A DNA stretch of 64,000 nt from Thermomicrobium sp. 4228-Ro (GTDB lineage Bacteria > Chloroflexota > Chloroflexia > Thermomicrobiales > Thermomicrobiaceae), in NCBI RefSeq assembly GCF_026241205.1, contig NZ_JAPFQM010000006.1, forward strand, positions 843,129 to 907,128, read 5' to 3'. Made by a program: the position numbers and the translations under genes. A model generated the notes under the pieces. That model had not been told where the DNA came from, made no database searches, and saw only the letters and a program-made list of their open reading frames with translations. Positions 29,723 to 41,324 of the stretch are shown piece after piece (position 1 is the first letter of the stretch; each line of letters starts with the position of its first letter).

Positions 29723-30172
29723 ATGTCGGACGTCGGCCGCCGTCACTCGCTTCTCGGCAGCTCCGGCAGCCGCCGAAACTGGTTGAAACGCCTCGCTGGC
29801 ATGGTGGTCAGTGGCGTCCTGTTCCTGATCACTGAGCCACCCGTGCACGGTCAGGCCTCGTGCAGCCAGTGGCACCGCTGCGGCATGTGCGGTTGCCTGT
29901 GTTCCTGTGTCTGCGGCAGCGATTCCGCCTGCCCCTCGGGCACTCAGGAAGGCGGTGCGTGGTGGGCCTGTTGCTTCTCCAGCGGGAGACTCTGGCTCGT
30001 CCGCTCCCTCGACTGCTGCGGTCCGCGGGACCGGCGACCGGCCTGCCCCAGCGGCCGCTCCTGTAACCAGAACAACAGTTGCGGACAGTACCCGTCGAAC
30101 CAGAACTGGTGTCCGAATCCGTCGACCCGAGCAGCCTACTGCACGCGTGCACAGGTGTGGTCGCAATGCTGA
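29723..30172 (+). CDS. Methylamine-dehydrogenase light-subunit-like protein (TTQ type), copy 1
   Basis: The 149-residue protein has a Tat-like signal (SRRNWLKRLAG then a hydrophobic stretch to about residue 45). The mature chain follows the MADH light chain: CSQWHRC, CLCSC, ACPSGT, AWWACCF, RSLDCCG and QNWC. Aligned by eye to the Paracoccus light chain, W80 and W129 match the two tryptophans that cross-link into tryptophan tryptophylquinone, and D97 matches catalytic Asp76. The position of Asp32 is Cys56 instead. There are 18 cysteines against 12 in the classical subunit. With a heavy-subunit-like propeller it should oxidise an amine outside the membrane. The substrate is unknown. ATG follows GAAGGAG. 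Confidence 0.8.
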   Translation: MSDVGRRHSLLGSSGSRRNWLKRLAGMVVSGVLFLITEPPVHGQASCSQWHRCGMCGCLCSCVCGSDSACPSGTQEGGAWWACCFSSGRLWLVRSLDCCGPRDRRPACPSGRSCNQNNSCGQYPSNQNWCPNPSTRAAYCTRAQVWSQC

Positions 30173-30232
30173 TCGGTCTCCTCGTACCGACCGAAACCGG
30201 ACGCTCGGACAGTCAATACTCGGAGGTCGACC

Positions 30233-31537
30233 ATGCGTGACCGAACGCTTCCGACCGTATCGCCGCGACGGACGACTGGCCTACTGCTCGCCTCGAGCGC
30301 TGTCCTGCTGGTCAGCCTCATCGCCGCATCCCTGACCCGAATCGGTGTACCGTCGCGCTCGCTCCCCCATCTGGGTGCCGCACCGAACGCGATCGTCCGT
30401 CCCCTCGTTCTGCTCCCGGTCGGCACCACCGATGACCCGAGACTGGCCCCCCGCACGACCGGGCTCGTTCTCGTCGATGCCCGATCGGGAGCGATTCTGG
30501 ACCGCCACGCGATCGCTGACTCCACCGAGGTCGTGAGCGCCTCTTTCGTCTCGCCCGGCGACCGCATCGTCTTCTACGCCGGCGAGCACACGGGGCCGCA
30601 CGCACGGCTCGAGGTCCGCCGCCTTCCTGGCTGGGATATCGAGTCCGTTGTCCCGATCGACGCCAGTATCCCGCCAGCCCGCGTGCTCGCTGAGCGCTTC
30701 CCCTCGATCAGCGCCTCTGACCCGACGCTCCTCGCGTTCGCAGCCGAACCGCAGGGACGGTGGGCTGCCGTCACGTTCTGGTCGCTGATGGCGCCCAAGC
30801 CCGACGGTCCATCCAGCCAGCTCGTGTGGGTGACCATGGTGGACCTCGAGCGTGCCGCGTGGGCTGGGTGGGCCCACCCGCTCCCCGCGAGCCAGGCAGC
30901 TTCGCTCGTAGCCCTTCCCGACCGTATCCTGGTGCTCGGCCACGAGCTGCGGACCTCGAGCCGGCGCAGTGTCGGCACGGTCGTCGCGCTCGACCCGCAG
31001 AGCGGTGAAACGCTCGGCCAGCTGACCTTGGAGAGTGCCTCGACGACGGTCAAGCCGCTGGGAGAGGGCCTGGGCGACGAGCAAGCCACCTTCTCGACCG
31101 CGCTCGACCCCGTTCTCTGGAACGGCCAGCTGTTGGTGGTGACCACCGACCTGGAAGGGTTCGTCATCGACCCCAGTGCGCTCACCGTCACCGCGCACTA
31201 CCCACCGCTCGCGGACCGGCTCGTCGCCGCCGGACGACCCTTCATCACGGGAGATCGGCTGGTCGTCGGCGGTGGTGCGGTGCGCGTGATCGATATCGCG
31301 TCGTGGCGACTGCTGGCCACTTACCCCTTGCCGCAGATGCCGGAGACCTGGTGGATCGCCGCCGGCCTGGTCGATCAGGAGACGTTGCTCGTGACCGGCA
31401 CGCGCGAGGGCTGCCTGCGGCACCTGGATCTGGCGACGGGTCGTCTCAGCGCGCCGCTCGCGTGCGGCTTCCTGGTCGACTATCCTTCCCCGCTGTTCGG
31501 CTGGCCAGCCTTCTTCTCAGGCTCGAGCGGTCCCTGA
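30233..31537 (+). CDS. Beta-propeller protein, heavy-subunit-like, copy 1
   Basis: The 434-residue protein has an N-terminal export/anchor helix (TGLLLASSAVLLVSLIAASL) and repeated propeller strands (TGLVLVDARSGAILDRHAI, ARLEVRRLPGWDIESVVPID, WVTMVDLERAAWAGWAHPLP, VVALDPQSGETLGQLTLES). It occupies the place of the methylamine dehydrogenase heavy subunit, 61 bases after the light-subunit-like gene with its own CGGAGG site. Near the end two cysteines (EGCLRHLD and PLACGF) are spaced C-x16-C, as in all four intact paralogues. Similarity to MauB is at fold and context level; sequence homology is not proven by eye. Confidence 0.75.
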   Translation: MRDRTLPTVSPRRTTGLLLASSAVLLVSLIAASLTRIGVPSRSLPHLGAAPNAIVRPLVLLPVGTTDDPRLAPRTTGLVLVDARSGAILDRHAIADSTEVVSASFVSPGDRIVFYAGEHTGPHARLEVRRLPGWDIESVVPIDASIPPARVLAERFPSISASDPTLLAFAAEPQGRWAAVTFWSLMAPKPDGPSSQLVWVTMVDLERAAWAGWAHPLPASQAASLVALPDRILVLGHELRTSSRRSVGTVVALDPQSGETLGQLTLESASTTVKPLGEGLGDEQATFSTALDPVLWNGQLLVVTTDLEGFVIDPSALTVTAHYPPLADRLVAAGRPFITGDRLVVGGGAVRVIDIASWRLLATYPLPQMPETWWIAAGLVDQETLLVTGTREGCLRHLDLATGRLSAPLACGFLVDYPSPLFGWPAFFSGSSGP

Positions 31538-31546
31538 AGAGACCGG

Positions 31547-32219
31547 TTGCAGAGAGGAGTTCTCCGATGCTCGCTCGCTGTACTGGACGTGCCGATAGCC
31601 GGCCGGTCTCCCGCCCCCCTCGTCGAGCTTCTCGTGCTCGTGATCGTCTCCTTTCCTGCTCTCGCCGCGACACCACTGCTGCGTCCCAACGATCGGCTGG
31701 CTGCCCGTCCCGAGCCTGCGCCTGCACTGATCCTCGCGCAGACGGCTACGCACTCGCTCGCACTCGACGCCCGCAGCGGCCAGATCGTCTCCCAACAGCC
31801 TGGCACCTCGGCGATCCTCGCCGCCGATCCCGGTGGCCGGCTCGCCCGCTCCATCACCGACGATCGGGTGACTATCTCGCGCCTCCCGAGTTGGTCGACC
31901 GTCCATGTGCTTTCGATCGACTCGGAGATACCACCCGCTCAGGCAGTGCGACGCGCCTTCCCAGCTCTCGGTGACGACTCCCCTCGTCCCTACGCAGCCG
32001 AGGTCTCACCGGACGCCCGGTACGCCGCCGTCCGGTTCGTCTCGGTGGCGCCGGGACCTTCCAGCCGGTGGGTCCTCTGAGTCACCACTCTGGACTTGGA
32101 GCGTGGCACCTGGGCGAGTTGGGCCCTCCCGGTTCCGGGTGCGCACTCTGCGTACCCGACGAGCGAACGCGATCCACCCGCCCGGGGACACAGCGATCCT
32201 GGCCGTCTGCCCGCTCGGC
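31547..32219 (+). pseudogene. Decayed heavy-subunit-like propeller
   Basis: This frame aligns with the N-terminal third of the neighbouring propellers: HSLALDARSGQIVSQQPGTS, VTISRLPSWSTVHVLSIDSE, IPPAQAVRRAFPALGDDSPR. It stops at TGA 32078-32080 where the paralogues have tryptophan (RWVL-stop-VTTLDLERGTW), continues in frame for the conserved ASWALPVPGAHSA, then loses similarity near 32170. The C-terminal two thirds, including the C-x16-C pair, are missing. It follows copy 1 in the same unit, and promoter P2 of the next propeller starts at its end. It is evidence of duplication and loss in this family. Confidence 0.8.
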
Positions 32220-32254
32220 AGCTGTCTGCAGCCAGCAGCGCGGCCCGTCTAGAA
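32220..32254 (+). promoter_or_regulatory. ECF-type promoter P2, upstream of propeller copy 2
   Basis: AGCTGTCTGC (32220-32229), a 16-base spacer and CGTCTAGAA (32246-32254) lie 28 bases before the GTG of the next propeller gene. It is the only one of the four that drives a propeller without a light-subunit gene directly in front. Confidence 0.72.
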
Positions 32255-32282
32255 AAGTGAAGACGAGCCAGGAGAGTGGACC

Positions 32283-33653
32283 GTGTCCGACATCACCCGC
32301 GCGCACCCGCATCGCACCGGCTACGGCAGCCGTGGCAGCTTGCTCGAACGCCTCATCGCCGCATTGGTCAGCGGTGTGGCGCTCCGGCACCCTCGACACG
32401 CCATCACCGCGAGTGCCGCTGCACTGGCCGTCAGCCTGTTCCTCGTCCTCGCGCTCGCCCTCTCCCGAACACCGGCGGGCCTGCTGCACACCGCGGGCCA
32501 CGGGGCACCGGACCAGTCTCGACCGAGACTGCTGACGTTCGCAGCCGAACCGGCTGACGCCATGACTGGCATCTTCGGGAGCCGGCTCGTGCTCCTCGAT
32601 CTCTCGACCGGTGAAGTCGTCGACTCCTACTCCGATGCGTCCGACGTGAGCGCAGCTGCACTCTCGCCCGCTGGTGACCTCGTCATCCTCAAACGTGGCG
32701 AGCTGGCTGGTGAGACGTGGCGGGACCGGCTCGAGGTCCGGCGCATACCCGACTGGTCGCGCGCGGCAGTGCTGCCGCTCGACTCCAGGATTCCCCCGGT
32801 CCGCGCGCTGGCTCGAGAGTTCCCCGCGGCAGCCACGGAGCCTCCCGTGCTGCAGCGGATGGTGATCGCCCCATCGGGCACCTGGGCCGCTGCGTGGCTC
32901 ACCTCGACGACCGAAAGCTTCCCCGGGGGCGGCGGCAGCTTCATCACCTGGATCACCACGCTCGACCTGGCCGCTGGCAGCTGGGCGACATGGGCGCTTC
33001 CCCTACCCGGTGCGCAAGCTGCCAGCCTTCTCGCGTTACCCGACAAGCTCGTCGTCATGAGTTCGGGGATCTCGTCGCCCCGGCAACCGACCGTCGCCAC
33101 GCTCCTCCTGGTCGATCCGGCGACCGGTCGCATCGAAGCGAGACAGGAACTCGCGCCGCTCGAGTGGACCGCCAAGCCAGCACGGCACGAGCCGACCCTC
33201 GTCACCTACCCGAGCGCGCTGCCGCCAGCCCTGTGGGGCACCCAGCTGGTAGTCGTGACCGAAGACCTGCAGGGTTTCGTCCTGGACGCGCAGACGCTGG
33301 CAGTCCACGCCCGCTACCCAGCACTGTCGGAATCGCGCCGCGTCGGCTGGCAGGTGCTGGTCAGCGGTGCCCGTGCGGTGCTCGTCGGGTACGACGAGGT
33401 CCTCCTCGTCGACCTCCACCGGTGGTCCGTCGAGCGTGCCTATCCTTTGCCCCACCGTGCGGAAAGCCTCTGGCGACCGGTCGGCATCGACCACGAACAC
33501 CGCACGCTCTGGCTCGTCACCACCGGAGACGGGTGTCTCTACCGGTTCGCGTTCGACCGGGGAGTCCTCTCGGAACCGCTCCGCTGTGGACTCGCTGCCG
33601 GTTGGCCCCATCTGACCGAGGGTTGGCCGGTGAGTAACGCCGCGGCCCCTTGA
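32283..33653 (+). CDS. Beta-propeller protein, heavy-subunit-like, copy 2
   Basis: The 456-residue protein has an N-terminal membrane/export helix (AITASAAALAVSLFLVLALA) then propeller repeats: SRLVLLDLSTGEVVDSYSDA, RLEVRRIPDWSRAAVLPLDS, ITTLDLAAGSWATWALPLPG, LLLVDPATGRIEARQELAPL. The ending DGCLYRFAFDRG then PLRCG gives the C-x16-C pair. It starts with GTG behind CAGGAGAG, has its own ECF-type promoter, and lacks a light subunit in its own unit. It could share one made elsewhere in the cluster. It is most like copy 1 and the decayed copy. Confidence 0.72.
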   Translation: MSDITRAHPHRTGYGSRGSLLERLIAALVSGVALRHPRHAITASAAALAVSLFLVLALALSRTPAGLLHTAGHGAPDQSRPRLLTFAAEPADAMTGIFGSRLVLLDLSTGEVVDSYSDASDVSAAALSPAGDLVILKRGELAGETWRDRLEVRRIPDWSRAAVLPLDSRIPPVRALAREFPAAATEPPVLQRMVIAPSGTWAAAWLTSTTESFPGGGGSFITWITTLDLAAGSWATWALPLPGAQAASLLALPDKLVVMSSGISSPRQPTVATLLLVDPATGRIEARQELAPLEWTAKPARHEPTLVTYPSALPPALWGTQLVVVTEDLQGFVLDAQTLAVHARYPALSESRRVGWQVLVSGARAVLVGYDEVLLVDLHRWSVERAYPLPHRAESLWRPVGIDHEHRTLWLVTTGDGCLYRFAFDRGVLSEPLRCGLAAGWPHLTEGWPVSNAAAP

Positions 33654-33683
33654 GAGGTGGTCGCACCTGCGGGACGCTGTCCC

Positions 33684-33719
33684 ATCTGTCTGGGTGCGCT
33701 CCCGCCACGCGTCTCGAAA
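33684..33719 (+). promoter_or_regulatory. ECF-type promoter P3, upstream of light-subunit copy 2
   Basis: ATCTGTCTGG (33684-33693), a 16-base spacer and CGTCTCGAAA (33710-33719) lie 29 bases before the ATG of the second light-subunit-like gene. The spacer sequence differs from P1, P2 and P4, so only the two boxes and the spacing are conserved. Confidence 0.75.
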
Positions 33720-33748
33720 TAAATGAGTCGTACGAGGAGGTCGCTCGA

Positions 33749-34198
33749 ATGGTATCCGCCGACCGGCTGCAGGCGCCGAACGACCCGCCCGCTGAGCGGA
33801 CCGACGACCGGTCCAACCGTCGCTCCTGGCTTCGCCGCTTCCTCGGCTTCCTGCTCACGACAGCCACCCTGTTGGTCGATCCACCTTCGACCAACGCCCA
33901 GAGCTGCAGTGACTGGTTCCGCTGCGGCATGGGTGGCTGCCTCTGCTCCTGCCGGGGCGGAAGCGACTCTAGTTGCCCACCCGGTACCGTGAACGGCACG
34001 AGTGCCTGGTATGCCTGCTGCTACGATCGGGCACGCAATAAGGTCTTTTTCGTCCGCTACACCGATTGCTGTTCGAACACGCAGCCCCCAGCATGCCCAA
34101 GTGGTTGTTTCTGCTCGCAGAGTGCGCAACCGAGTTGGTGCGGGTCGGCCGGAAGGTACGTCGTGTGCACGCGCGCCGTCCTCGTCGGAGTGTGTTGA
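33749..34198 (+). CDS. Methylamine-dehydrogenase light-subunit-like protein, copy 2
   Basis: The 149-residue protein has a Tat signal (NRRSWLRRFLGFLLTTATLL). The mature part has CSDWFRCGMGGCLCSC, SSCPPGT, AWYACCYD, VRYTDCCS and QPSWC. W87 and W130 match the TTQ-forming pair of the Paracoccus light chain, D106 matches Asp76, and the Asp32 position is Gly. The SCPPGT segment is nearly identical to NCPPGT of the classical subunit. It has 16 cysteines, including all 12 aligned positions judged by eye plus extras. ATG 33749 follows GAGGAGG. The partner propeller starts 22 bases later. Confidence 0.83.
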   Translation: MVSADRLQAPNDPPAERTDDRSNRRSWLRRFLGFLLTTATLLVDPPSTNAQSCSDWFRCGMGGCLCSCRGGSDSSCPPGTVNGTSAWYACCYDRARNKVFFVRYTDCCSNTQPPACPSGCFCSQSAQPSWCGSAGRYVVCTRAVLVGVC

Positions 34199-34220
34199 TG
34201 CTCGACAGGAGGACCGAGTC

Positions 34221-35687
34221 ATGCTGGACGGATCCGTCACTCGCTCTGCTTCGCACCTCCTCGCGCGCCTGTGGATCGCCCTCGTCGTGATGCTGGCTCT
34301 CGCCAGCCCTGGCTCGCCAGCCGCTGCCACGGATCCGAAACCGGTCGTCGTCGCGCTGAGCGGGCCGGATGCCGAGGAGGTCGCCATCCTCGACCCACGC
34401 AGCGGGACTGTCTTCAACCGGGTGCCGAACCGTGGTCAGGCGGTCATGCAAGTCTTTCTGGCTCCAACGGGCGATTTGGCAGCGGTGAAGGTCATCGAGG
34501 AAGGCCCGACGCCACGGGAGTACCTGGAGATCCGCACACTGCCCGATTGGACGCTCCGGACACGCGTCACGCTCGAAGCGATTCCACCGCTGCAGCCCTC
34601 GGAGGGGACGACACCCGGGCCCGTCCGTGACCCGCAGTTGGCATTCGCCTCGTTCTCGCCCGATGCGCGGGAGGTCGCGCTCGCCTTCTTCGCGACCGGG
34701 GAAGTCGCTGGCTGGGGCGTCCCGCACCTCGTGGTGACCGGCTTCGACCTCTCCTCCGGCCGGTGGGCGGGCTGGGCACGGTTGCTCGGTCCCGCCGACT
34801 ACGCCTGGCTCTTCCCGCGCCAAGACCGCTTGATCGTCGTCGCCCGGTCCGTCCTCCCACTCCGGACCGGTCAGGTCGCCACGGTCTACGCGCTCGACCG
34901 TACCTCGGGAGCCGTTCTGGGTACCCAGCCGATCCAGCATCTTGCTCCCGGGATACTGCCGCCCCGGGGCCAGACCGTACCCTCGACGACCGCAAGCATC
35001 GTTGGAGCGATGATGCACGGTGACGAGCTCGTCCTGCTCACCACCGATGTCGCGCGCATCGTCCTGGCAACTGACTCGCTCCGTATCCAGCGCGTCGATC
35101 CGCCGCTGACCCGCGAGCTCACCGCCCGCAGCGCGGTGCTCCTCCGCGACCGGCTCGTCGTGCAGTCGATGCTGGACGAGCTGCTCGTCGTCGACCTCGA
35201 CGCGTGGACAGTACGCTCGACGTACCAGCTGCCGCGGCCTGATCCGGAAGCGTACTGGACATTCTCCTGGGTACTGGTCGGCGCCGATCCGGACGGTCAC
35301 TGGATCTACCTCGGCGATACCGGAGAGGGGTGCCTGCGCCGCTGGAACCTCGACACTCTCGAACTCTCGACGCCGTCGGCCTGCGGGCTCGACCTGCGCC
35401 CCGAGTGGGTGACGTACTACGGATGGCCAGCATTCGCCTCGGGCACGAGCGAAGCGACGGCCACGCTCCCCGCGCCAGCCCGCCAGCCAACCGGTACCGT
35501 CGGCGTGGCGGCGCTCGCTCTCGGCGCCGTGTCGCTCCTGGCCGTGCTGGCACTGCTCGTAGCCTCCAGCACGCTGCGCCGGAGCGTCACCAGTGTCCGC
35601 AGCCGGATCCCCGCGTGGGCCCGGTTTCCGGGTAACGCACCGCCTGCTCAGGAGACCAGCCCGGCGAGCGGCTCGCCGGGAACCTGA
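34221..35687 (+). CDS. Beta-propeller protein, heavy-subunit-like, copy 3
   Basis: The 488-residue protein has a signal helix (LWIALVVMLALASPGSPAAA), then propeller repeats (EEVAILDPRSGTVFNRVPN, EYLEIRTLPDWTLRTRVTLE, LVVTGFDLSSGRWAGWARLL, TVYALDRTSGAVLGTQPIQH). A C-terminal transmembrane anchor follows (VAALALGAVSLLAVLALLVA), so the propeller should sit outside, tethered to the membrane. The paired cysteines (EGCLRRWN and PSACG, C-x16-C) are kept. It lies 22 bases after light-subunit copy 2, with AGGAGG in between, so the two should be produced together. The C-terminal anchor is absent in copies 1 and 2. Confidence 0.75.
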   Translation: MLDGSVTRSASHLLARLWIALVVMLALASPGSPAAATDPKPVVVALSGPDAEEVAILDPRSGTVFNRVPNRGQAVMQVFLAPTGDLAAVKVIEEGPTPREYLEIRTLPDWTLRTRVTLEAIPPLQPSEGTTPGPVRDPQLAFASFSPDAREVALAFFATGEVAGWGVPHLVVTGFDLSSGRWAGWARLLGPADYAWLFPRQDRLIVVARSVLPLRTGQVATVYALDRTSGAVLGTQPIQHLAPGILPPRGQTVPSTTASIVGAMMHGDELVLLTTDVARIVLATDSLRIQRVDPPLTRELTARSAVLLRDRLVVQSMLDELLVVDLDAWTVRSTYQLPRPDPEAYWTFSWVLVGADPDGHWIYLGDTGEGCLRRWNLDTLELSTPSACGLDLRPEWVTYYGWPAFASGTSEATATLPAPARQPTGTVGVAALALGAVSLLAVLALLVASSTLRRSVTSVRSRIPAWARFPGNAPPAQETSPASGSPGT

Positions 35688-35861
35688 ATGCCGGCACCCC
35701 GAACCGTTCGGACGCAGCGTCGAGCGCGTGCGGGCTCGACGGCTCGAGCGGGTGCTCTGGCCCTCCCGTGGCGGGCCGTCATCACACTGGACAGACCCCC
35801 GGGCAGCCGCCGAACTCGCCGGTCGCTCGTCAGTGCTCGGCAGGTGACGCGCGCACCTTCC

Positions 35862-35896
35862 ACCTGTCTGCTGGACGATCTCTCGTGCGTCTAAAG
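35862..35896 (+). promoter_or_regulatory. ECF-type promoter P4, upstream of light-subunit copy 3
   Basis: ACCTGTCTGC (35862-35871), a 16-base spacer and CGTCTAAAG (35888-35896) lie 30 bases before the GTG of light-subunit copy 3. The -35-like box is identical to P1. This unit appears to include the MauE-fused propeller, mauD-like gene and probably the sigma factor. Confidence 0.75.
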
Positions 35897-35926
35897 GAAT
35901 AGACAGAGTGGAAGGAAAGACCTGCT

Positions 35927-36361
35927 GTGGACGACACGATGGACACCCGTGCATCACCGAATCTGGCGAGTGACACGACGACACGGCGGACGTGGATCCG
36001 CCGCGCGCTGGCCCTCGCCGCTGCAACGGTCGCTCTCCTCCGCGAGCCGGAGCTGGCCCGTGCCCAGAGCTGCAGCGACTGGTTCCGCCGCGGGATGTCC
36101 GGCTGCCTCTGCTCTTGCCGGGGCGGGAGCGACCAGGCCTGCCCGAGCGGGACGGTCTCGAGTACCCGGGCCTGGTACCTGTGCTGTGACGATCCGGCTC
36201 GTAACCGCGCGTCCGTCGTCCGATCCATCGACTGCTGCACGACCGGGAGCGTCCCCAGCTGTCCCAGCCGCTGCCGCTGTACGAACGGAGGAGCGCAACC
36301 GAACTGGTGTGACTCGGGGAACGTCGTGTGCACGCGTGCCGTTCTGGTGGCGACGTGTTGA
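35927..36361 (+). CDS. Methylamine-dehydrogenase light-subunit-like protein, copy 3
   Basis: The 144-residue protein has a Tat signal (TRRTWIRRALALAAATVALL). The mature part is CSDWFRRGMSGCLCSC, QACPSGT, AWYLCCDD, RSIDCC and QPNWC. W83 and W127 match the TTQ pair and D102 matches Asp76; the Asp32 position is Ser. Uniquely, the second cysteine of CSDWFRC is Arg55, leaving 15 cysteines, an odd number, so the C29-C61-type disulphide of the classical subunit cannot form in the same way. The start is GTG 35927, well spaced from GGAAGG; an ATG four codons on is possible. It heads the unit with the MauE-fused propeller. Confidence 0.8.
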   Translation: MDDTMDTRASPNLASDTTTRRTWIRRALALAAATVALLREPELARAQSCSDWFRRGMSGCLCSCRGGSDQACPSGTVSSTRAWYLCCDDPARNRASVVRSIDCCTTGSVPSCPSRCRCTNGGAQPNWCDSGNVVCTRAVLVATC

Positions 36362-36385
36362 GATCGGGAAGCTGGAGGTGCACCG

Positions 36386-38191
36386 ATGGAAAGACCGGGC
36401 GCTGGGAACTGGATGCGCGCACGGACCGTCTTCCTGGGATCGCTCGCCGTCATCCTGGTCCTCGGCCTCGGAGCGCTGGCCGCCACGCTACGCTGGTCGG
36501 CTACCCGTGACGCCACCGCTGCTCCTCCGGATCGGCCCCTGATCGTCTCGCTCGCGCGACCCGACGCGAAGGAGATCGTCGTCCTCGACCCGCGCACCGG
36601 TCAGGAACTGCACCGGGCACCTAACCCCGACCAGGGGTACCTCGAAATCTTCCTCTCGCCGGACGGTCGCCGCGCCGCTGTCGCGCACGACAGTCCTGAC
36701 GGGTCGACCGACGTCCTCGAGATCCGATCGCTCCCCGCCTGGTCGCTCGAGGCCTCCCTGCCGCGCGGAGCGTCCGCCCCACCGCTCGCCGGCCTGGCGA
36801 GCCGCCAGCCCGACCTCGTCGAAAATCTCGGCCTCGCCTTCGCTGCGTTTTCTCCGGACGGCACGCTCCTGGGACTCGCCTACTACGGCGGCAGCGGTGA
36901 CATCCCGCAACTCGTCGTCACCCTGTACGACCTGGAACGGCAGGCGTGGGCCTCTTGGGCTACCAGCCTGGGCGCCAGCAGCTACGCCTGGCTCTTCCCC
37001 GGTCGCGATCGGTTGCTGGTCGTCAACCGCTCCGTCCTCCCGCAGTGGACGAACTCCCTGGGCGACGTCTTCGTCCTCGACCAGCGGACGGGTGCGGTGA
37101 TCGCCCAGCAGACGATCCCGCGGCTCGTCACGGCCTACTTGCCGCAGCGGGGTCGTCTCGCACCGAGCGCGTCCCCCTCTCTCGCGACTCCCCTGCTCGT
37201 CGGCGAGGAGCTCTGGTTGGTCACGGCTGACCTGGCCCGCTTCGTCCTCGATGCGCACACGCTGGAGATTCGCCGGACGGATCCGCCGCTCGCCCGGGAC
37301 CTCGCCGCGCAGGCTGCGACGCTCGCCGCTGACCGTCTGGTCGCCTTTTCCGTGGAAGCGTCCGAGCTCCTCGTCGTCGACCCGGCTCCCTGGCACCTGA
37401 GCGCGACGCACCGCTTGCCCGAGAGAGGCTTCTCGTCCGACTGGCTCCTGGTGGGCGCCGAGCCCGGTGAGCGTACCGTGTACGTCGGTGCGATCAGCGA
37501 CGGATGCCTCTGGCGTGTCCCGCTCGACAGCGGGACGCTCTCGGCACCGCTGGCCTGCGACCTCTACCTGGAGTTTCCGTACATCACCTACTATCACTGG
37601 CCGGCTTTCTCCCCCGGCACAGCTGCGCCGGCCGGCGCGACCGGCCTGCTCCGGCACCTTCCCCAGTCGGCAGCTGGGGTCGCGACCGCCCTGCTCGCTG
37701 GCACCTTCCTCGTCGCCACGCTCGGCAAGCTCTTCGCCCTCGCCGATGCTGCGCGCCTGCTCGCTACCGTCCTCCCGCGACTCCGCCGTTGGGCACGCCC
37801 GGCCGCGCTCGGGACCGTCGCGCTGGAACTCCTCACCGGAGCCCTGTTGCTGGTACCGGGCACCCAGCGCGCTGGGCTCGCGCTCGCCGCGACCGCTCTC
37901 CTCGCCTTCACCGCGTTCGGCCTCGTCGGAGCCCGGCGCGCGCCAGGCGCGGACTGTAGCTGCTTCGGCAACCTGATGCCGGCGAAGCTCGGTCGCGGGA
38001 CGCTCCTGCGCAACGTGACTCTGCTCGCGCTCGTCGCAATCGCCTGGCCAGTGGCAGCGGCACCGTCCCTTGCCGACGTGACCGTTGCCAGCCTTCTCGT
38101 GCTCTCGGTCCTGGTCGTGTCCCGCGTGGCCGCGACCGTGGCCAGTCTGCGCCGGTCGGCTGGAGGAGTCACGACGCGCCATGCTGCCTGA
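36386..38191 (+). CDS. Propeller fused to MauE-like membrane domain, copy 4
   Basis: Residues about 13-35 form a signal anchor (VFLGSLAVILVLGLGALAA). Residues 45-410 are a heavy-subunit-like propeller (KEIVVLDPRTGQELHRAPN, DVLEIRSLPAWSLEASLP, VTLYDLERQAWASWATSLG, DGCLWRVP with PLACD, C-x16-C). Residues 425-595 are a four-helix MauE/DoxX-like domain with the CxCFG signature (GADCSCFGNLMPAKLGRGTL). In classical mau clusters MauE is a separate membrane protein needed with MauD for disulphide formation in the light subunit. Here it is covalently attached to a propeller. The gene overlaps the mauD-like gene by 11 bases. I know no described protein with this fusion. Confidence 0.8.
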   Translation: MERPGAGNWMRARTVFLGSLAVILVLGLGALAATLRWSATRDATAAPPDRPLIVSLARPDAKEIVVLDPRTGQELHRAPNPDQGYLEIFLSPDGRRAAVAHDSPDGSTDVLEIRSLPAWSLEASLPRGASAPPLAGLASRQPDLVENLGLAFAAFSPDGTLLGLAYYGGSGDIPQLVVTLYDLERQAWASWATSLGASSYAWLFPGRDRLLVVNRSVLPQWTNSLGDVFVLDQRTGAVIAQQTIPRLVTAYLPQRGRLAPSASPSLATPLLVGEELWLVTADLARFVLDAHTLEIRRTDPPLARDLAAQAATLAADRLVAFSVEASELLVVDPAPWHLSATHRLPERGFSSDWLLVGAEPGERTVYVGAISDGCLWRVPLDSGTLSAPLACDLYLEFPYITYYHWPAFSPGTAAPAGATGLLRHLPQSAAGVATALLAGTFLVATLGKLFALADAARLLATVLPRLRRWARPAALGTVALELLTGALLLVPGTQRAGLALAATALLAFTAFGLVGARRAPGADCSCFGNLMPAKLGRGTLLRNVTLLALVAIAWPVAAAPSLADVTVASLLVLSVLVVSRVAATVASLRRSAGGVTTRHAA

Positions 38192-38744
38192 GTGGATCCT
38201 CGTCGTCAGCTCCTCGCTCGCGTGGCTCGCCGTGCTCGCGCTGGCCACTATCGTGTCCCAGCTCGCCCGGCGTCTCCAGCTTCTCCAGCAACAGGTCAGC
38301 GGCAACGCGGGCCAAGAGCGAGTGCTCGAGAGTCTCGGCCAGCCGGTCCCGCCGCTCGCCCTCGCTGGCCCCGCGTCCGATCAGCTGATCCTCGGCGTGC
38401 CCCCGGCGGCGCCAGCGGTCGTCCTCGCTCTCAGTCAGCGCTGCCCACCGTGCGCAGGCTTCTGGGCACAGTCGGCAGCGCTCGCAGCGTCGCTCGCTGC
38501 GCGAAATGTCCTGCTGGTCCTCGCCGTACCGGAGCGCGCAGTTCCGGCAGAAGCCGCACACCTGCCCCGGCTCGTCGGCGAGGCAGCGCTGGCTGCACTC
38601 GGTCTCTCGAGCTTCCCGAGCCTCGCGTTCGTCGACGAGCGTGGTCACCTGCGGGGACGTGGGGTCCTCCGGAGCGTCGAGGAAGTCCCGGAGATCGTCA
38701 GCATGCTCCTGCAGCCCACGGTCGACACGGAGGGAAAGTCATGA
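38181..38744 (+). CDS. MauD-like membrane-anchored thioredoxin
   Basis: The 187-residue protein has one N-terminal transmembrane helix (WILVVSSSLAWLAVLALATI) and a periplasmic-type thioredoxin fold with active site SQRCPPCAGFW and the cis-proline region LSSFPSLAFVDERG. MauD in methylamine-utilising bacteria has this layout and a CPxC centre, and is required to form the many disulphides of the light subunit. The 11-base overlap with the MauE-containing gene mirrors the usual mauE-mauD order. A general thiol-disulphide role is possible, but the context favours light-subunit maturation. Confidence 0.8.
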   Translation: MLPEWILVVSSSLAWLAVLALATIVSQLARRLQLLQQQVSGNAGQERVLESLGQPVPPLALAGPASDQLILGVPPAAPAVVLALSQRCPPCAGFWAQSAALAASLAARNVLLVLAVPERAVPAEAAHLPRLVGEAALAALGLSSFPSLAFVDERGHLRGRGVLRSVEEVPEIVSMLLQPTVDTEGKS

Positions 38745-38812
38745 CTCTCTGGCTGGTCCCGCTCGCCTTGGCCAGCGGGTGTTCCGCACTCTGGTCGCCT
38801 TGAGGGTACTCG

Positions 38813-39406
38813 ATGGTCGACGTGCTCGGCCCGACCATGGCAGAGCGACCACGCCGGCACGCCGTGGCGACCGCCTTCCTCCACGTGCTGGCCAGCAGCG
38901 CCGGCGGTGCGCTGACCGGCGGGGTGCTCGCACTGCTCGGCACGCTGCTCCTGCCAGCTGTGGTCGCCACGCAGCGCCCGGCAGTCCTACTCGCCGCAGT
39001 GGTCACCGCCCTCGCGATGGCCGAGATGGTGACCGGCTGGCGGAGCCCGGTCTGGCGCCAGGTCCCGCCCGCACGGTTCCACCGCGGTCCCCTCTTCGCG
39101 AGCGCAGCCTGGGGATTCGAGCTCGGCACCGCTTTCACCACCCGCTGGCCGACGCTCCAGCTCGCCAGTCTGGGTCTGGCGACGCTCCTGTCACGCGACC
39201 TCGTACAGGGTGCAGCCCTCTTCCTCGCGTTCGGCCTCGCGCGCGGTCTCGTCACTGCCGGAGCGGCGTATGCGCTGTGGCGGCCTCCTTGCCCGGTGGG
39301 TGCGCTCGGTGTCCTGAACCTGCAGCGGCTGGCACGAGCGGGACCGGTGGCTCTGGCCTTCGTCTGTGCAGGCCTCCTGCTGTACACTGCGGGTACGGCC
39401 TCCTGA
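38813..39406 (+). CDS. Membrane protein of the amine-dehydrogenase cluster (MauF-like position)
   Basis: The 197-residue protein has about five hydrophobic helices (SSAGGALTGGVLALLGTLLL, PAVLLAAVVTALAMAEMVTG, LARGLVTAGAAYALW, GPVALAFVCAGLLLYTAG) and a loop WRQVPPARFHRGPLFASAAW. The charge and loop pattern recalls DsbD/CcdA-type membrane proteins, the class to which maturation proteins such as MauF have been compared, but no redox CxxC pair is seen. It sits after the mauD-like gene, before the sigma factor. A 20-codon frame at 38742-38804 ending in a lipobox-like ASGC separates them. The functional call is inference from position. Confidence 0.5.
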   Translation: MVDVLGPTMAERPRRHAVATAFLHVLASSAGGALTGGVLALLGTLLLPAVVATQRPAVLLAAVVTALAMAEMVTGWRSPVWRQVPPARFHRGPLFASAAWGFELGTAFTTRWPTLQLASLGLATLLSRDLVQGAALFLAFGLARGLVTAGAAYALWRPPCPVGALGVLNLQRLARAGPVALAFVCAGLLLYTAGTAS

Positions 39407-39428
39407 CCGGAGAGAAGGAAACCGAGCG

Positions 39429-40169
39429 ATGCGGTCCAGCCTCACTCCAGCCCGGCTCAGTCTCGTCCTGCTCCTCGTCCTCCCGTCGCTCGGCTACCTG
39501 CTCCTCGACGACCGGCCGGCACCACCGCACCTCTTCCTCCACCGGATGCCGCCACCGCTGCTCCACGCCGGCCGCCGGAGACGGCCACCGCGGGATCCTC
39601 CTGATCCCGCCGAGCCCGCTCAGCCAGAGCCATCCCCGTCCCGAAGCGCTCCCGACGACACCCTCTTCGCTGATCTCTACGGCGAGCATGTGGAGCACCT
39701 GCGAGCTTACTTGCGCCGCCTCGGTGTGCCGCCTTCCCTCCATGACGACCTGATCCAGGAAACTTTCGCGCGCGCCTGGGCAGCTCGCGCCCAGTTGCGC
39801 GACCGCGCAGCGCTGGCCACCTGGCTCAACCGGATCGCCCAGCGCTCCTGGTTCGACTGGTTGCGCGCCCAACAGCTGGAGCATCGGGCGTTCGGCCGTG
39901 TACTCCGCGAGGCCTGCCCCCGAGGCGCGGAGGATTGGTCGGCCGACCGCCTGCTCGTCGAGCAAGCGCTGGCGAAGCTCCGCGACCGCGACCGGGAGAT
40001 CCTGTACCTCCGCTGGGAGGCCGAGCTCGGGTTCGACGAGATCGCCGACCTCCTCGGTATCTCCCCCACCGCCGCCCAGCGCCGCGCGCACCGTGCGCTC
40101 GAGCGGCTCAAACAGATCCTCGCCCGACTGGAGCGCACGGGCGACTCCGGTAACGAGGTACAGCGGTGA
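39429..40169 (+). CDS. ECF sigma factor with hydrophobic N-terminal extension
   Basis: From about residue 78 the protein is a normal ECF sigma: region 2 (FADLYGEHVEHLRAYLRRLG, DDLIQETFARAWAAR, LNRIAQRSWFDWLRAQQ) and region 4 (LAKLRDRDREILYLRWEAEL, FDEIADLLGISPTAAQRRAH). The first 77 residues are extra: a transmembrane-like stretch (LSLVLLLVLPSLGYLLL) and a P/R-rich linker. If translated from ATG 39429 it would be membrane-tethered; a start at ATG 39546 would drop the helix. It lies directly behind the MauE/MauD-like genes and is the natural candidate for reading promoters P1-P4. No anti-sigma gene is adjacent. Confidence 0.8.
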   Translation: MRSSLTPARLSLVLLLVLPSLGYLLLDDRPAPPHLFLHRMPPPLLHAGRRRRPPRDPPDPAEPAQPEPSPSRSAPDDTLFADLYGEHVEHLRAYLRRLGVPPSLHDDLIQETFARAWAARAQLRDRAALATWLNRIAQRSWFDWLRAQQLEHRAFGRVLREACPRGAEDWSADRLLVEQALAKLRDRDREILYLRWEAELGFDEIADLLGISPTAAQRRAHRALERLKQILARLERTGDSGNEVQR

Positions 40170-40265
40170 ACCACCGAGGTGGGGGACGTTCGGAACACCG
40201 GCGCGCCGGTGCAGCGCCACAGACACCTCTGCTAGACTCGAAACACAAATCGGACGGAGACAAGG

Positions 40266-41324
40266 ATGCGACGCAAGCGCTTCGCGCCCACTCGGATACG
40301 CTGGGGCTGGCTGGGGCTCGTGCTCGCCGCCATCTTCCTCGTCCTCAGTCCAGCGAGCGCATCGGCGCATGTCCGCTGGTTCGTGCCGGAAAGTCTCCAG
40401 CTCCGCTCGCCGCAGTGGGAACTCTTCTGGCGCTGGCCGACGCTGGCGGTCATCGGCCTCAGCGCGTTCCTCTGGGCGGGACTCCGGCTTCTCCAGCGGG
40501 CCCTCGGCACCCCACACTGGCCGAATCCGCCGCTCCTCGCCAGCATGGAACCCTGCGCGACCCGCGTCCTCGCCCTCCACGCCGGTATCAGTCTCGTCTG
40601 GTTCGCGTATCAGCGCGAACTTTTCGTATCGTCGCTCGAACTCCCGAACTCGCTCCTCGGATGGGCTCTCCTGGTCGCGACCGTCATCGTCGCCTTCACC
40701 TTCATTACTGCACTTTTCGACCGGGCTGGCGCAGCCCTCCTGCTGCTCGTCTACCTGGCGGCCTTCGCGGTCTTCCCGCCGGTCGCTGTGCTCGAGCAGC
40801 TGCACTATCTCGGCATCGCGCTCGTCCTGCTCGTGCTCGGCCAGACGGTTCCGCCGCTTCGCGTGGCGCAGGTTCTCATCGGGCTCACCCGGTACGAGCG
40901 GCACGCCGTCACAGCGCTCCGGGTACTCACCGGTCTCGCGCTGGTCATCGTCGCCTTCTCCGAAAAGCTCCTCAATCCCGAACTGAGCAGCGCGTTCCTC
41001 CAGCAGTACCCGCACTTCAACGTCCTTCACAGTCTCTTCGGCTGGACCTGGGTCTCCGATCGCTTCTTCGGCGACCTGGCGGGGATCGTCGAGGCAACGA
41101 TCGGGATCCTGCTCATCACCGGTGTCCTCACCCGCGTCGTGATCCTCGCGATGTGGATTCCGTTCAACCTCACCGTGCCACTGTTGCCGCCGGTGGAGCT
41201 GCTCGGCCACCTGCCGATCTTCGGCATCATGTACCTGCTGCTCTTGTACGGCTCGGGAGTCGCGCCGCAGACAGCGTTCCGCTGGCTACAGCCCGCCTTG
41301 ACCGGCGAACTCGCTGCTGCCTAG
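40266..41324 (+). CDS. DoxX-like multi-spanning membrane protein
   Basis: The 352-residue protein has an export-like first helix ending SPASASAHVRWFVPES, then about eight more helices. The C-terminal half resembles DoxX/DoxD proteins (TALRVLTGLALVIVAFSEKL, DLAGIVEATIGILLITGVLT). DoxX-type proteins take part in membrane quinone or thiol redox chemistry. Here it could pass electrons from the extracellular quinoproteins to the quinone pool, but that is speculation from its place at the end of the cluster. The ATG follows GGAGACAAGG. A TAGACT -10-like box at 40233 may give it its own promoter. Confidence 0.6.
   Translation: MRRKRFAPTRIRWGWLGLVLAAIFLVLSPASASAHVRWFVPESLQLRSPQWELFWRWPTLAVIGLSAFLWAGLRLLQRALGTPHWPNPPLLASMEPCATRVLALHAGISLVWFAYQRELFVSSLELPNSLLGWALLVATVIVAFTFITALFDRAGAALLLLVYLAAFAVFPPVAVLEQLHYLGIALVLLVLGQTVPPLRVAQVLIGLTRYERHAVTALRVLTGLALVIVAFSEKLLNPELSSAFLQQYPHFNVLHSLFGWTWVSDRFFGDLAGIVEATIGILLITGVLTRVVILAMWIPFNLTVPLLPPVELLGHLPIFGIMYLLLLYGSGVAPQTAFRWLQPALTGELAAA

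Follow-up and report, generated by a model that had tools for sequence, protein, structure and literature searches.

The window considered here, a stretch of 64,000 nucleotides (contig NZ_JAPFQM010000006.1, positions 843,129 to 907,128), is the terminal part of a 907,128-base contig of the hot-spring bacterium Thermomicrobium sp. 4228-Ro (Chloroflexota), whose assembly comprises 13 contigs and 3,068,448 bases; according to the genome paper, the sequence was obtained by nanopore assembly with correction by Illumina reads. The size of this contig is that of the megaplasmid of strain 4228-Ro, and the locus of interest, an amine-dehydrogenase-like gene cluster, sits on this megaplasmid. All of its genes lie on the + strand between positions 29723 and 41324, where an earlier note, made from the letters alone, had placed them. 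The cluster contains three genes resembling the light chain of methylamine dehydrogenase (MADH), four complete beta-propeller genes and a broken fifth, a MauE domain, a MauD-like thioredoxin, a MauF-like membrane protein, a sigma factor gene and a DoxX-like gene. Since the membrane protein and the thioredoxin are homologues of MauF and MauD, respectively, the gene content amounts to a complete mauFBEDA-type set (mauF, B, E, D, A), in which MauE is fused to one of the heavy chains. An MADH-like cluster with several light chains, as that note had described it, is well supported by profile searches, fold comparison, the accessory MauF, MauE and MauD homologues and conservation in relatives.

Light-chain-like proteins

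The three light-chain-like genes, L1 (29723..30172), L2 (33749..34198) and L3 (35939..36361, with an alternative GTG start at 35927), encode proteins of ~140-150 residues, each carrying 15-18 cysteines and the twin-arginine translocation (Tat)-type leader already recognized in the earlier note. In the profile search which that note had proposed, all three exceed the gathering score of 25 of the Pfam light-chain family PF02975 (Me-amine-dh_L), with 27.8 bits for L1, 46.1 for L2 and 36.2 for L3; the NCBIfam equivalog for the MADH small subunit, TIGR02659, gives 16-47 bits, below its cut-off of 196.85. When L2 is compared with the PDB by phmmer, MADH and aromatic amine dehydrogenase (AADH) light chains alone are retrieved (2e-13 to 5e-10). 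The AlphaFold2 model of L2 has a middling mean predicted local distance difference test score (pLDDT) of 65, which is low just before Trp108, and in the Foldseek search with this model the best 32 rows consist entirely of MADH and AADH light chains, no other protein appearing below E 4. A chance likeness among cysteine-rich proteins is ruled out by the Pfam, phmmer and fold matches.

Residue conservation was assessed in an alignment of 20 sequences (17 from Chloroflexota, three proteobacterial), using the numbering of Paracoccus MauA. Trp57 and Asp76 are present in 20/20 sequences, and Trp108 and Thr122 in 19/20 each, with Ser replacing Thr122 in the remaining one. The tryptophans that the note had assigned to the tryptophan tryptophylquinone (TTQ) cofactor, namely W80/W129 in L1, W87/W130 in L2 and W83/W127 in L3, align with Trp57/Trp108, and the Asp76 position is likewise retained in all three proteins. 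The twelve MADH cysteines are complete in L1 and L2; L3 lacks Cys29, and AauA itself lacks two of them. L2 is the sole isoform of the window that combines all twelve of these cysteines with Tyr74, Asp76 and both tryptophans, having neither gained nor lost a family cysteine. In L1 and L3, Tyr74 is replaced by Ser (TCC), the HRbin27 and Thermomicrobium roseum orthologues having Tyr (TAC). This TAC to TCC exchange is common to L1 (29723-30169) and L3 (35939-36358) despite their different classes (see below), and may reflect a parallel change, conversion or an assembly error.

Propellers and their pairing with light chains

Each of the three light-chain genes is followed by a propeller gene, as the earlier note had it: L1 by P1 (30233..31537; ratio of nonsynonymous to synonymous substitution rates, dN/dS, 0.34-0.38), L2 by P4 (34221..35687), which ends in a C-terminal membrane helix, and L3 by P5 (36386..38191), in which a MauE domain occupies the C-terminus (~37673-38044; PF07291, 69.6 bits against a cut-off of 27). 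This confirms the MauE-like domain of that note and places it within the last propeller gene. P3 (32283..33653, GTG start) has no light chain of its own, and is 87% identical to its T. roseum counterpart, with a dN/dS of 0.37. The count of four propellers holds for complete genes (those starting at 30233, 32283, 34221 and 36386); a fifth, broken one, P2, at ~31547-32156, had been missed. According to tblastn and blastn comparison with the T. roseum megaplasmid (NC_011961), P2 (31547..32156) is a class III pseudogene whose reading frame is shifted and interrupted by an in-frame stop, and ~1.1 kb is deleted there, the lost segment corresponding to its 3' half together with its light chain, itself frameshifted in T. 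roseum.

P1, P3, P4 and the N-terminal part of P5 share ~30-45% mutual identity. The MauB-type heavy-chain profile PF06433 finds 0 matches in the genome at E 0.1, and none for the propellers, whose relation to MauB by profile comparison and fold (below) is a distant one. The model of the P5 propeller is of high quality (pLDDT 90); with Foldseek alone, MADH heavy chains appear mixed among other propellers. Upon VIA realignment of the top 1000, the first 21 rows are MADH or AADH heavy chains, aligned over residues 1-375, that is, over the whole model, with Z values of 22.6-21.2. Other propellers start at Z 20.5, so that the gap is only ~1-2 and the fold alone is no proof of heavy-chain identity. 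Profile comparison against MauB/AauB by hhalign, whose E-values refer to single comparisons, yields 91.7% with the propellers of Thermomicrobium and reaches 98% with those of the compact loci found outside the genus (see below). In the latter, paired cysteines (LPNC...C versus VPDC...C) coincide with the invariant heavy-chain cysteines. The heavy-subunit role, which the earlier note had offered as an inference, is supported by the fold ranking, the profile comparison, synteny and congruent trees; the possibility that the propellers are unrelated WD40-type proteins was rejected, as the first three of these favour heavy chains.

The C-terminal membrane helix of P4 aligns with the region where the MauE part begins in relatives, and a search downstream of the P4 stop revealed no MauE remnant. 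A tRNA-Gly (gcc) predicted by ARAGORN inside P5, at 37622-37706 on the - strand, is probably a false call, since Rfam finds no match there.

PF02975 is rare, being detected in 8/158 genomes of the class and 5/400 sampled genomes of the phylum, and in a profile search of contigs, matches with a close light-chain alignment occur in Thermomicrobium only. Within the genus, the order light chain - propeller - ... - propeller/MauE - MauD - MauF - sigma factor - DoxX is kept in HRbin28 (G119), CFH 73360 (G121), HRbin27 (G120) and G124, while the T. roseum megaplasmid carries six propellers and five light chains, one of the latter with a frameshift. Two genomes of other Chloroflexota, G029 and G375, possess a compact single-copy locus of the order MauE - MauD - light chain - MauF - propeller; a third, G091, has the same compact locus, except that a sigma gene precedes the propeller and the reading frame of the light chain is broken. 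As a propeller occurs together with the light chain in all three, the association extends beyond the genus.

Within the genus, 16 adjacent light-propeller pairs can be sorted into three classes: class I comprises L1-P1, class II comprises L2-P4 and L3-P5, and in class III the propeller comes first and the light chain second; the intact class III pair has been lost from the window. Light-chain and propeller distances agree in Mantel tests, with r 0.84 for these 16 pairs, r 0.87 (p 5e-5) for 18 pairs including two from outside the genus, and r 0.81 (p 5e-4) within class II alone. Since the light-chain and propeller trees are congruent across the three classes, the unit of duplication is the light-propeller pair; congruent distances of this kind fit joint duplication as well as interaction. 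Intact pairs of every class persist in relatives.

Accessory and flanking genes

The MauD-like, membrane-anchored thioredoxin (38181..38744) bears a CPPC motif and matches the MauD profile in hhalign with a probability of 99.95%, confirming it as a MauD homologue. The adjacent gene (38813..39406), described in the earlier note simply as a membrane protein, is a MauF homologue: it matches the MauF profile at 99.0%, and two unrelated membrane-protein profiles used as controls give 0.1%. Downstream lies a gene for a sigma factor of the extracytoplasmic function (ECF) type (39429..40169; PF04542 and PF08281 above cut-off), conserved among members of the genus as well as at the G091 locus, which is probably the regulator of the cluster. 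At 39429-40169, a hydrophobic, membrane-like N-terminal stretch, also conserved in relatives, precedes sigma-70 region 2 and could mean that the sigma factor is held at the membrane or that the start has been misassigned. The last gene (40266..41324) encodes a DoxX-like membrane protein (PF07681, 18.3 bits, below cut-off), which is conserved downstream of the cluster in the genus; in T. roseum, a second DoxX-like copy (L025:5596-6597) is found among the extra light-propeller pairs.

Compared with relatives, most genes of the cluster have dN/dS values of 0.2-0.5 and are under purifying selection; the MauF-like gene is too similar to that of T. roseum for such a judgement. Promoter and terminator scans of the locus returned no more matches than shuffled sequence.

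Proposed function and relation to known systems

The light chains, propellers and MauF, MauE and MauD proteins are homologous to components of the MADH/AADH system, their genes are under purifying selection as described above, and light chain and propeller have been duplicated together. Taken with these observations, the locus is best read, with a probability of roughly 0.55, as a Chloroflexota branch of that system, in which duplicated light-heavy pairs share one set of maturation genes and would act as amine-dehydrogenase isoenzymes with a TTQ-type cofactor. By analogy with MADH, each cysteine-rich light chain would be exported by the Tat route, would acquire its disulfides with the help of the shared MauF, MauE and MauD homologues, and would assemble with the propeller encoded beside its gene. 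In the mature protein, the conserved tryptophan pair (MADH 57 and 108) would be crosslinked to give TTQ, or a tryptophan-derived quinone closely related to it, and this cofactor would oxidise a primary amine on the outer side of the cytoplasmic membrane. At least the P5 complex, through its MauE fusion, and probably that of P4 as well, would be tethered to the membrane, and electrons would presumably pass to an unlinked mobile or membrane carrier, for instance one of the blue copper proteins of the genome.

Several findings weigh against this interpretation. The TTQ of MADH is completed by MauG (PMC7876137). Members of the MauG family (PF03150) give 0 matches in the whole 4228-Ro genome, and are likewise absent from six of seven further genomes (four Thermomicrobium, G091 and G375) and from the T. 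roseum megaplasmid; a PF03150 gene occurs only in G029, on another contig of a fragmented assembly with ~6% contamination. TTQ completion would consequently have to proceed without MauG, through a step lacking a known catalyst, and with the known cofactor-finishing enzyme absent, the cofactor may arise otherwise or the protein may serve another purpose. Neither amicyanin nor a cytochrome is linked among the genes of the 29.7-41.3 kb region, the three blue copper genes of 4228-Ro being located elsewhere in its genome. The second active-site aspartate, Asp32, a point unmentioned in the earlier note, is kept in 3/3 proteobacterial light chains and in 0/17 from Chloroflexota, its position being taken by Cys, Gly and Ser in L1, L2 and L3, respectively. 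To judge from the title of Jones 2005, active-site aspartates are reportedly critical for TTQ formation; the loss of Asp32 in these sequences suggests that the active site is altered or that no quinone is formed. Individual isoforms have also lost conserved residues: Arg replaces Cys29 in L3 and a further cysteine, kept by orthologues, in L1; Leu replaces Trp108 in the HRbin27 class I light chain (L036:2072-2518), and the CFH 73360 counterpart of L1 (class I, L034:6863-7308) is frameshifted, the propeller being retained in both cases. Finally, growth on amines is unreported in the papers examined on strain 4228-Ro and T. roseum.

A rival reading is that the light chain has the MADH fold without TTQ, the tryptophans being kept for packing or persisting as a pair that is unmodified or merely hydroxylated, with the complex serving binding, sensing or non-quinone redox chemistry. 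The lack of MauG in the genome and in nearly every other carrier of the locus, the fact that Asp32 is never retained in Chloroflexota light chains, the HRbin27 copy without Trp108 and the variable, decaying isoforms all speak in its favour. We nevertheless consider it rather doubtful, given that Trp57, Trp108, Asp76 and Thr122 are near-invariant even though the remainder of the protein diverges to ~30-40% identity, and that MauF, MauE and MauD are retained alongside the light chain. The AADH-type loci examined likewise lack MauG within ~6 kb, so that a locus devoid of MauG is not without parallel, and more weight attaches to its absence from the whole genome. Compatible with either chemistry is the view that most copies are remnants of a decaying family, with at most one pair working in 4228-Ro, as the broken P2, the cysteine losses of L1 and L3, their common Tyr74 to Ser exchange and the frameshifted light chains of T. 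roseum and CFH 73360 would suggest; dN/dS values of 0.2-0.5 for L1, L3, P1, P3 and P5 and the intact pairs of each class in relatives make this unlikely.

An ordinary multi-copy MADH, with methylamine isoenzymes that differ only in expression or stability and a TTQ finished by an unrecognised peroxidase encoded elsewhere, would agree with the complete F-B-E-D-A set and with the blue copper proteins as possible acceptors. It is quite improbable, however, as the sequences lie far below the MADH equivalog cut-off, a PF06433 heavy chain was not found in the genome, MauG is missing, and the existence of three ancient pair classes points to divergent roles. A further reading, which we put forward tentatively, is a thermophilic, MauG-independent tryptophylquinone branch, with an active site devoid of Asp32 and isoenzymes sharing one maturation set. 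If true, this would imply that the Trp-Trp quinone is finished by an unknown route, or that the cofactor is a new one derived from Trp. Loci that keep the Trp pair, Asp76 and MauF/MauE/MauD in the absence of MauG and Asp32 make the minimum requirement for TTQ testable; the paired light/heavy duplication provides a natural isoenzyme set, and the locus is present in cultured thermophiles (strain 4228-Ro and T. roseum).

The protein family itself is already known; what is new is the arrangement, the lack of MauG and Asp32 and the expansion of pairs. No paper naming Thermomicrobium together with methylamine dehydrogenase was found in the literature searched, and the T. roseum genome paper contains no word starting with amine or mau. 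Signs of methylotrophy, including methylamine oxidation, have been mentioned for several phyla, Chloroflexi included (PMC8262859; mention only). Methylacidiphilum possesses a mauBEDA operon and a MauG homologue elsewhere, and does not grow on methylamine (PMC2474590).

Among known systems, the mau cluster of Paracoccus denitrificans (mauR, mauFBEDACJG, then NapG/NapH-type genes; NC_008688) shares with the Thermomicrobium locus the light-chain fold with its twin-arginine type leader, the TTQ Trp pair and Asp76, a propeller heavy chain and MauF, MauE and MauD homologues. In contrast to it, Thermomicrobium has several light-heavy pairs, another gene order, a heavy chain fused to MauE, extra cysteines (15-20 versus 12) and an ECF sigma factor in place of MauR, lacks MauG, amicyanin and MauJ, and has lost Asp32. 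The aau clusters of AADH, such as that on the Pseudomonas aeruginosa RW109 plasmid, resemble it in combining heavy chain, MauE, MauD and light chain without adjacent MauG or amicyanin; unlike it, they are single-copy, keep Asp32, have linked c-type cytochromes and contain no MauF in the stretch examined. Quinohemoprotein amine dehydrogenase, with its cysteine tryptophylquinone (CTQ) cofactor (PDB 1jju), likewise has a propeller subunit, which appears among the fold matches, and a subunit with a tryptophan-derived quinone; its small subunit, cofactor and maturation enzymes differ, and its propeller scores below all listed MADH/AADH heavy chains. The T. roseum DSM 5159 megaplasmid (NC_011961) carries the same cluster, in which RefSeq uses the label "methylamine dehydrogenase light chain" for one gene and "MauE/DoxX family" for the last propeller; it differs from that of the window in its higher numbers of light chains and propellers, in keeping class III pairs and in lacking the L2-P4 pair.

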